This document shows positions 7,727 to 9,584 of a DNA stretch of 47,579 nt, one piece after another. The translations under genes and the position numbers were made by a program. Every line of letters begins with the position of its first letter. The first letter of the stretch is position 1. The notes under the pieces are model-generated. The model saw only the letters and a list, made by a program, of their open reading frames with translations. It did not search any database and was not told the DNA's origin. Source of the DNA: Paludibacter sp. (GTDB lineage Bacteria; Bacteroidota; Bacteroidia; Bacteroidales; Paludibacteraceae); contig NZ_WASO01000006.1 of NCBI RefSeq assembly GCF_009712605.1, positions 1 to 47,579 on the forward strand. Reading direction: 5' to 3'.

Positions 7727-7882
7727 GGGGATATTTTTGTTGAAGAGTTCTACTTCAATGCAAAATGTAATGTGCTTTGGAAATGAGACGTATATAGTTT
7801 TGTGGTACAATAAAAAGAAAAGCACACAAAAAACATCTGTTTTTAATGTGCTTTGATAGCTCGTTGTAACAAATATGTTTGT

Positions 7883-8359
7883 TTACTGATTTTGATTATT
7901 TATTACTTGTTCCGCTTTATCATGCAATAATGCATTAATATCAATAGATGGGAAATTATACTTTCCGAAAGGGAAATACGAAGTTAGATTAGAAAGATAT
8001 AATCTCATATTAGTAATACAAATACTTAATGCAGAAAATTGCAAAAATTCCTGTTTCTGCTTGTCTGATAATTCTGCATTCGCATCGAATCCAAAAAAAC
8101 CAACACTTTCAGCAAATAGAGAATAACCCTCTTTAGGCTCTTCTTTTTCATTTAAAGGGAAATTGATTGCAATTTTTGAAAGAATTTGATATGTTTTGGT
8201 ATTGTCTTGTTGTGATATGCCAAAATCAATTTCAATAGGGTACAGAGCCATTTTTTTCTCTAGATCGGCTCTTGATTCAATATTACCTCTAAACAAACCA
8301 GAACTACTAACTATTGCAAAGTCAATAAGAATCAGTGGCGATTTGGTCGCATTTATCAT
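7883..8359 (-). CDS. SecB-like chaperone of a toxin-antitoxin-chaperone module
   Basis: A 158-residue acidic, cytoplasmic protein. Its second half reads SICITNMRLYLSNLTSYFPF and continues GKYNFPSIDINALL. This matches the SecB fold signature in which a helix and FPF/YPF turn are followed by a short proline-containing strand and the last helix. SecB proteins bind unfolded polypeptides; the branch linked to HigB/HigA modules protects the antitoxin. Here the gene is third in the order toxin-antitoxin-chaperone, starting 11 bases after the antitoxin stop, the same order as in the Mycobacterium tuberculosis TAC locus. Base composition is much more AT-rich than in the flanking housekeeping genes, which suggests acquisition by transfer. 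The SecB-like call rests on motif recognition rather than a search. A free-standing SecB-like protein of general function is the alternative. Confidence 0.7.
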   Translation of the reverse strand: MINATKSPLILIDFAIVSSSGLFRGNIESRADLEKKMALYPIEIDFGISQQDNTKTYQILSKIAINFPLNEKEEPKEGYSLFAESVGFFGFDANAELSDKQKQEFLQFSALSICITNMRLYLSNLTSYFPFGKYNFPSIDINALLHDKAEQVINNQNQ

Positions 8360-8370
8360 AAAATAAGAAT

Positions 8371-8787
8371 TTAAGCAACTCTGTTCTTTAATTTCTCTTC
8401 TTGTTTATTAATTGGAGTACAATAAGCATTGCTATCATATGTAAAATAGCCATTGCTATGTAGATAGTTTCTACAAGATTCAATATCATTAGGGGAAGCA
8501 CACTGAGATACCAAACAATCTTGAATAATATATTGTTCTTTACTTTGAAAAGAAAGAGTAGGAATAATGCCTACGGCAAGAGATAATTCAACTAATTTAG
8601 AAATACGATGGTCGTAGTTTCCATTAAGTATTTGACTTATATATCCTTTAGAAACGCCTAATTTTTCAGCTAATTTGGTTTGGCTATTTCCATTTTCTTT
8701 CAAATATTGACTTACTTGATCAAATAAATCCATTTGAATTTTAGTAATAATATAGCCAGGACTGCAAATTAATTCTTCACGAGTCAT
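8371..8787 (-). CDS. HigA-like XRE-family antitoxin
   Basis: 138 residues with a helix-turn-helix at about 33-57 (SQTKLAEKLGVSKGYISQIL, a textbook XRE motif), preceded by a short helix. A C-terminal tail of about 50 residues contains four Cys and no recognisable domain. In TAC systems the antitoxin carries a C-terminal chaperone-addiction extension in this position, and the tail is a candidate for that. The gene lies 12 bases downstream of the toxin frame and 11 bases upstream of the SecB-like gene, so the three form one transcript. It probably represses its own operon through the palindrome at 9193-9212. An internal ATG (residue 19, MDLFDQ) is an alternative start. AT-rich like its partners. 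Confidence 0.8.
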   Translation of the reverse strand: MTREELICSPGYIITKIQMDLFDQVSQYLKENGNSQTKLAEKLGVSKGYISQILNGNYDHRISKLVELSLAVGIIPTLSFQSKEQYIIQDCLVSQCASPNDIESCRNYLHSNGYFTYDSNAYCTPINKQEEKLKNRVA

Positions 8788-8799
8788 ACTTGGTAATTT

Positions 8800-9168
8800 T
8801 TAGGAATTGAGATAATCTGAAACAATAGAAATTAGTTGGTTAATATCTTCTGGTTGAGTGTTCTTATAACCACCTAATATTACAATTTGATTTTTTAATG
8901 ATTGTAATCCATAAACACGAAGATCCCCTTTTTAAAATTCAAAACATTTGACATTTAATTTACGTAATCTAGGATGTTTTATTTCTCTCCATTGCTTTTG
9001 TAAAAGCATTAAACCATCAACGTATCTTTGCATATATTGCCCGATACTTTGATAGGAACGGAAATAAATTGGATTCGAAGCTATTTCAATTTCATATTGA
9101 TCCAACAAACATTTTCCATTAATTAATAATTTATGAAAAATATATTTGTTAGGTCTAATCTCGTCCAT
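8800..9168 (-). pseudogene. RelE/HigB-type toxin interrupted by an in-frame TAA
   Basis: The frame from the ATG at 9168 (MDEIRPNKYIFHKLL) runs to TAA at 8932-8934 and then stays open in the same frame to TAA at 8800-8802. The second part, KGDLRVYGLQ, then IVILGGYKNTQ, is the conserved C-terminal half of RelE/HigB-like ribonuclease toxins, and the part before the stop (LRKLNVKCFEF) leads straight into it. A single substitution in one codon (for instance AAA to TAA) explains the break. The truncated 79-residue product would lack the strand carrying the conserved Arg, so it is probably inactive. An ATG at 9192 is in frame, but a -7 promoter element lies over those codons, so 9168 is preferred. 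The alternatives are a sequencing error or stop readthrough. Confidence 0.75.
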
Positions 9169-9178
9169 TATTTGTGTT

Positions 9179-9187
9179 GCAAATATA
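9179..9187 (-). promoter_or_regulatory. -7 promoter element of the TAC module
   Basis: The minus strand reads TATATTTGC, a perfect TAnnTTTGC. It lies 10 bases before the ATG at 9168, so the transcript would be nearly leaderless, and it argues against the ATG at 9192 as start. Confidence 0.6.
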
Positions 9188-9192
9188 CGCAT

Positions 9193-9212
9193 AGTTTAGT
9201 AATAACTAAACT
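9193..9212. promoter_or_regulatory. Palindromic operator candidate for the TAC antitoxin
   Basis: AGTTTAGT and ACTAAACT form an 8-bp inverted repeat around AATA. It sits just upstream of the -7 element, spanning the spacer and -33 position, where binding of the XRE antitoxin would block transcription. Autoregulation is inferred from position and family. Confidence 0.55.
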
Positions 9213-9584
9213 TTTTCCAGTAAGAAAAAGGTTAAAAATAAAAACATTTACATCGCTGTTATATATGTGTTTATGTACTATACATTTAGAATCCGCTTAT
9301 GGAAAATTAAAAAACAATCAAAATAGTAACAAATTTAAAGTCATTTGTGTTCTCTCAAAATGAAATAAATTTGATCTTGAATTCAAAGGAACAATTTTTT
9401 CACGAAATTTCAAAATTGAACTATAGCTCGTTTAGAATGTTGATAGTTGATAAGTAAAAAGTGCTTTGTGTTTAGATTTGATATTCAAAATGATATTGTA
9501 TTTGCACGGATTGAATTATATCTACAAAATCATGAAATTATGAGAGATTTCCTTTGTAGACTTAATAATGTCGGATTTGGAAAT
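9213..9584. other. AT-rich intergenic stretch between mnmE and the TAC module
   Basis: About 370 bases with no convincing gene, terminator or repeat. Composition resembles the TAC genes rather than mnmE, so the transferred segment probably extends to near the mnmE stop. No attachment-site direct repeat was recognised. Confidence 0.5.

Follow-up and report, generated by a model that had tools for sequence, protein, structure and literature searches.

Three adjacent minus-strand reading frames in a Paludibacter sp. contig raise the question of whether they form a working toxin-antitoxin-chaperone (TAC) module or the remains of one. The window that we analyzed is a stretch of 47,579 nucleotides, in which a sequence-only reading had proposed a TAC module made of a RelE/HigB-like toxin, an XRE antitoxin and a SecB-like protein. 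The three frames lie at 8800-9192, 8371-8787 and 7883-8359, with gaps of 12 and 11 bases, as that reading described (Table 1), but the toxin is not one continuous gene. Translating 8800-9192 runs into an in-frame TAA at 8932-8934, with 86 codons ahead of it and 43 behind. The reading frame is unchanged across the stop, the listed ORF is the 86-residue piece (8932-9192), and none of the 43 codons past the stop is ATG, GTG or TTG.

Table 1. Features of the TAC-like locus, with positions in the window.
Feature	Position	Strand	Remarks
Palindromic operator candidate	9193..9212	.	immediately 5' of the toxin start codon; site conserved in relatives
RelE-type toxin, N-terminal piece, 86 codons	8932..9192	-	closed by in-frame TAA 8932-8934
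Toxin downstream remnant, 43 codons and stop	8800..8931	-	in the frame of the N-terminal piece; without ATG/GTG/TTG
XRE-type antitoxin gene	8371..8787	-	138 aa; helix-turn-helix at residues 27-77
Antitoxin C-terminal tail, candidate chaperone-addiction segment	8374..8559	-	residues 77-138; putative function
GY motif in antitoxin tail	8446-8451	-	residues 113-114
SecB-like chaperone gene	7883..8359	-	158 aa
Terminator-like hairpin	7819..7854	-	inverted repeat, 3' of the chaperone gene

Scored apart against a profile built from 16 intact relatives, the N-terminal and C-terminal toxin pieces reach 61.2 and 44.7 bits, respectively, and cover profile positions 1-82 and 85-126 of 130. Both pieces still match this profile of the family, so if there is a break at all it is a recent one. 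The stop maps between E81 and L87 of the toxin family alignment, and five residues past this position (R88, Y90, G104, K106 and Q109) are invariant in 18 relatives and may be catalytic. Because the toxin gene is not intact, we file the locus as a toxin-dead member of the TAC class by descent, and not as a working TAC. Our favored account, which we hold to be quite probable, is a chromosomal TAC operon by descent in which a premature stop has disabled the toxin; judged from the sequence, active toxin is probably not made here, while antitoxin and chaperone remain. We infer that the stop is truly present in the organism; this account could fail if it is a sequencing or assembly error. A fully working TAC, in which the TAA is such an error or a minority variant, or in which readthrough is frequent enough to supply toxin, would suit the continuous frame, the family fit of both pieces and the intact appearance of the antitoxin, the chaperone and the operator-like site. 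The codon is nevertheless a plain TAA with no start codon after it, and 13 other loci also have broken or partial toxins, indicating that decay is common in this toxin family; we regard a working module as unlikely. In another relative, L092, the toxin pieces likewise share one frame across the break, and several other broken relative toxins show a frame change or a deletion.

A RelE-type family, as proposed, is supported for this toxin by way of its relatives. Against TIGR02683, the C-terminal piece of the window toxin scores 16.9 bits (E 0.006), below the cut-off of 62.85, and the N-terminal piece gives no match; no second copy of the N-terminal piece was found in the same genome. Among the relatives, TIGR02683 is matched by 8/18 (best E 1.6e-6) and Pfam Gp49 by 2/18 (best E 4.7e-5). 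A structure model of the toxin from the intact relative L024 (pLDDT 95) has YafQ/RelE-type toxins in its first 14 rows against the PDB, with probabilities of 0.66-0.99 and weak E-values of 0.04-0.33. The toxin family profile searched against PDB sequences gave nothing meaningful, the best row being a designed protein, and family searches of the window toxin pieces gave no match to an ADP-ribosyltransferase.

For intact relatives, we propose that the operon is repressed by the XRE antitoxin, which would bind the palindrome ahead of the toxin gene. The antitoxin's C-terminal tail would make it unstable or prone to misfolding, and binding of the tail by the SecB-like chaperone would keep the antitoxin active. 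The antitoxin would in turn restrain the RelE-type toxin, probably an mRNA nuclease, and the toxin would be released when the chaperone is drawn elsewhere. Both the chaperone-tail binding and the nuclease activity of the relatives' toxins are presumed in this scheme.

The regulatory part of the scheme draws on the upstream palindrome, which is found at 9193-9212 as the earlier reading stated and has a similar site conserved 5' of the toxin in relatives. Taken alone the palindrome is unremarkable: when the 140 bases upstream were shuffled 2000 times by mononucleotide, 448 of the shuffles contained a perfect arm of at least 7 bases. We built an operator pattern from the window and 11 relatives, and with up to 3 mismatches it occurs near the toxin start in 62 of 69 examinable loci, including 50 of the 57 outside the pattern-making set; random 90-nt stretches taken from the loci contain it in 148 of 5000 cases. 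The natural reading would be that the XRE antitoxin represses its own operon at this conserved site. The single promoter that had been assigned to the operon fared worse, as a sigma-70 scan (other promoter types lay outside it) returned 12 sites against 12.3 expected in shuffles. A 91-nt stretch holding the terminator-like hairpin folds at -19.6 kcal/mol (z -3.1).

The third gene, which adjoins the toxin-antitoxin pair, has a predicted SecB fold: the model of the window chaperone (pLDDT 91.4) shows this fold in structure comparison, in agreement with the SecB-like identity first proposed. Sequence profiles detect the similarity less readily. Pfam PF02556 gave no match to the window chaperone at E up to 1, and its best match among the chaperone relatives (E 1.1e-4) falls under the curated cut-off. 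Searched against PDB sequences, a profile of 13 chaperone sequences found no SecB and a profile of nine found SecB weakly (E 0.014). The window chaperone has no PADLOC match, and the PADLOC model PD-T4-9_C is matched by 2 of 13 chaperone relatives (best E 1.5e-6). The SecB export chaperones of E. coli and H. influenzae share 13-15% identity with the window protein; unlike them, the window chaperone shares its operon with a toxin-antitoxin pair and falls below Pfam detection.

Could this gene nevertheless be the organism's general export chaperone, SecB proper, lying beside a toxin-antitoxin pair by chance? Elsewhere in the genome PF02556 has no match at E up to 10, other TAC chaperones that were put to the test are reported to be able to replace E. 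coli SecB (PMC5105189), and three chaperone relatives (L004, L005 and L006) have no XRE gene alongside. Against this, the chaperone is patchy, occurring in 11 of 393 genomes of the order with its own counted, many relatives share its position and gene order, and a long antitoxin tail goes together with the third gene (below). We consider an export chaperone placed here by chance highly improbable. The three relatives without an adjoining XRE gene have a small conserved ORF 5' of them and, downstream, a gene that we take to encode glutaminyl-tRNA synthetase.

The antitoxin is of the XRE type, as had been read from the sequence: it matches HTH_3 (E 9e-9) and HTH_19 (E 3.7e-7), both past the curated cut-offs, and scores 16.9 bits against the HigA antitoxin model TIGR02607, below its cut-off of 47.7. 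In the 393 genomes, the antitoxin query matched 16, own genome included, and the lists of chaperone-matching and antitoxin-matching genomes overlap in the window's own genome only. Many antitoxin relatives instead have a different, more diverged third gene next to them. We therefore distinguish two subtypes of third gene, the window-like A1 (16 members in the first count) and A3 (42 in the same count); three further A3 genes and one third gene cut by a contig end were added later. None of 25 A3 members matches Pfam SecB, and A3 third genes have no match among PDB sequences; an early, small A3 profile had an unrelated ribosomal protein as its sole match (E 0.014). A3 is tied to A1 by profile comparison only (95.4%, 85.2% and 87.8%), so the SecB nature of A3 is presumed from that link. 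In a chaperone tree A3 and A1 are split (99/98), with no firm placement for the window chaperone; interspersed with the A1 set are six chaperones whose loci have another type of toxin and two that have no adjoining XRE gene. At L002, L003, L007, L009, L010 and L011, window-subtype chaperones lie behind this other toxin type (mostly 125-136 residues, with VKRKC as a frequent start) and an XRE antitoxin that looks unrelated, indicating that one chaperone subtype serves two types of toxin-antitoxin pair.

To compare loci, we used the best 80 of 145 relatives from an antitoxin-alignment scan of genome contigs together with 11 loci from the genome searches (the window in, and L019 dropped since its antitoxin frame was not located), giving 91 loci. 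Of these, 83 have distinct antitoxins, eight duplicates being left out of the distinct counts. A toxin was scored as broken at profile coverage under 85% and a third gene at under 80%; the third gene of L095, with one 6.5-bit match, was set to absent by hand. Among the 91 loci, 60 have an intact third gene and 4 a partial one; in 1 it is truncated by a contig end, 23 have none, and 3 are without downstream sequence. An intact toxin is found in 65 loci and a broken or partial one in 14; 7 have none, and 5 lie too close to a contig end for a judgment. The three genes co-occur in relatives, so neither this check nor that of the SecB fold went against the earlier reading.

The antitoxin's tail differs with the presence of the third gene. 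Its median length is 62 residues in 58 distinct antitoxins with a third gene and 38 in 21 without (Mann-Whitney p 3.7e-7, ignoring the relatedness of loci); 4 distinct loci are left out, as they lack downstream sequence or hold a remnant. The ranges overlap: tails of 57-61 residues also occur in 6 of the 21 antitoxins that no third gene follows. Among these long tails, those of L084 and L099 arise because the antitoxin stub runs on into the C-terminal remnant of an A3 third gene, with the toxin intact. At both loci it looks as if the end of the tail and the bulk of the chaperone had gone in a single deletion. In L043, which has no third gene, the tail ends just ahead of the GY motif, and its remaining part is 62% identical to that of L032 over 29 residues. 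The tail was thus lost together with the chaperone in L043, L084 and L099. Moreover, 13 of 15 aligned A1 antitoxins carry GY at residues 113-114, and a GY motif occurs in 13 of the 15 A1 antitoxins compared with 3 of the 68 others, although the motif was picked post hoc and shared descent inflates the contrast. This length link and the GY stretch support, by comparison, the proposal that the tail is a chaperone-addiction segment. The four cysteines named in that proposal are present in the window but are not conserved in 15 aligned relatives. A Cys-rich metal site in the tail was considered and ruled out, as the four Cys columns are not conserved.

Decay in this family shows a preferred order. 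Of the distinct loci, 42 have both toxin and third gene intact, 12 keep an intact third gene next to a broken or missing toxin, and 0 have a broken third gene next to an intact toxin. The binomial p for 12 against 0 is 0.0005 (0.002 counting only the 10 broken frames), to be read with the caveats that loci are related, all were reached through their antitoxins and many come from metagenome assemblies; L050 and L051 are possibly divergent and not broken, and excluding them gives 10 instead of 12. A further 13 of the 83 distinct loci have an intact toxin with no third gene at all, and L014 and L068, whose antitoxins are identical, have no toxin and, of the third gene, just a remnant. Should the antitoxin depend on its chaperone, loss of the chaperone before the toxin would be unexpected unless the tail goes too, which is the pattern observed.

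The same counts bear on whether an antitoxin-chaperone pair is retained toxin-free for a use of its own, such as guarding against related incoming TAC modules or regulating other promoters. Of 54 distinct loci with an intact third gene, the 12 that have no intact toxin would fit such retention, and a published survey pools TAC or "AC" loci (PMC4257090). The same pattern is expected, however, if the toxin merely goes first and the rest decays later, and L047 and L014 resemble later stages of decay. We find retention rather improbable here, somewhat more so than a working module, and keep to a TAC operon with a dead toxin. For 57 loci whose toxins are intact, a toxin-antitoxin tree that omits three loci without downstream sequence requires 5 changes of the A1 label, at least 3 of which supported branches force, and 11 changes of the no-chaperone label, of which at least 8 are forced. 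As few no-chaperone changes occurred in 57 of 500 shuffles, so chaperone absence is hardly clustered. Partner change and chaperone loss look recurrent in these sequences, and contig errors may add to the losses. We offer one broader interpretation tentatively: chaperone dependence in this lineage may be a detachable layer, with tail and chaperone repeatedly swapped or lost on one toxin-antitoxin backbone; where the toxin is the first to break, the remaining antitoxin and chaperone may persist because they serve some separate role, for example guarding the cell against related modules on incoming elements, and the window might hold one such pair.

The TAC kind is already known, and several characterized systems resemble the locus in part. 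The M. tuberculosis TAC HigB1-HigA1-SecBTA (Rv1955-Rv1956-Rv1957) has a chaperone with about 8% identity to the window chaperone in structural alignment and a tail sequence unlike the window's, although the published ChADs too lack significant mutual similarity, and it differs from the window in that the window toxin frame is broken. The anti-phage system CmdTAC (PD-T4-9) likewise consists of toxin, antitoxin and SecB-like chaperone and is reported to sense phage capsid via its chaperone (PMC11618068), but CmdT is an mRNA ADP-ribosyltransferase whereas the window toxin family is RelE-type. Two-gene RelE/ParE (TIGR02683, Gp49) and XRE pairs share the toxin family and XRE antitoxin but have no chaperone, and their antitoxin tails are mostly shorter, with overlapping ranges. 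TAC antitoxins are described as having variable C-terminal extensions, with extension grafting and pair specificity; grafting an addiction segment by hand made a two-gene pair chaperone-dependent (PMC5105189), and a chaperone-ChAD structure has been reported (PMC6377645). Published surveys describe 44 of 70 SecB sequences outside alpha-, beta- and gamma-proteobacteria as TA-associated, with TAC chaperones in several diverged groups that show signs of horizontal transfer (PMC4257090), and nine Bacteroidetes sequences among 3813 SecB surveyed (PMC4361572). Among titles and abstracts, mostly of the open literature, none concerned this Bacteroidota lineage, joint loss of tail and chaperone, or the order of decay. 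We find the comparative pattern around the locus more interesting than the locus itself: third-gene presence or absence is accompanied in this family by matching antitoxin-tail changes and a preferred order of decay. With near relatives that have and lack the third gene, the family provides natural cases for the gain of, or escape from, chaperone dependence, and L043/L032 and L084/L091 are natural pairs for comparing it.

How the module came to this site is suggested by its composition and flanks. The GC content is 0.283 over 7728-9584 and 0.436 in the remainder of the window, confirming the AT-rich island noted before, and the lowest value among 421 other windows of the same length is 0.365. 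The AT-rich stretch goes past the three genes both ways (7728-7882 and 9213-9584), and the 7819-7854 hairpin is the one feature recognized in these margins. The right-hand neighbor, MnmE, is 91-97% identical in three same-genus genomes, and in 3 of 6 fetched same-genus stretches the similarity to window DNA ends at MnmE; on the left, in one of the six, it ends at the start of the 6080-7825 gene. Two of the six (L124 and L125) match neither flank, and none of the six provided a clean empty site. G421 and G465 have no match to the left-hand flanking gene, and in G447, G480, G491 and G501 it lies on a separate contig from MnmE; the two flanking genes were not found adjacent in same-genus genomes, and the antitoxin query has no match in the 7 same-genus genomes listed. 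Flanks that are not side by side, together with the AT-rich composition, suggest a horizontally gained or rearranged stretch. Horizontal gain, as first proposed from AT-richness, is likely for the module stretch, these data falling short of proof.

One relative, L058, is a triad on a 3 kb contig labeled as a Lokiarchaeota MAG that sits among Bacteroidota loci, which suggests a binning error or transfer. Spread by plasmid or phage was considered and set aside, as a tblastn search with the chaperone found nothing at E 0.01 in collections of plasmids and phages. Scans of viral contigs turned up 2 chaperone relatives and 11 antitoxin relatives. One viral contig of 4051 bases, IMGVR_UViG_3300048575_000095, carries both a chaperone relative and an antitoxin relative (L128, L133).
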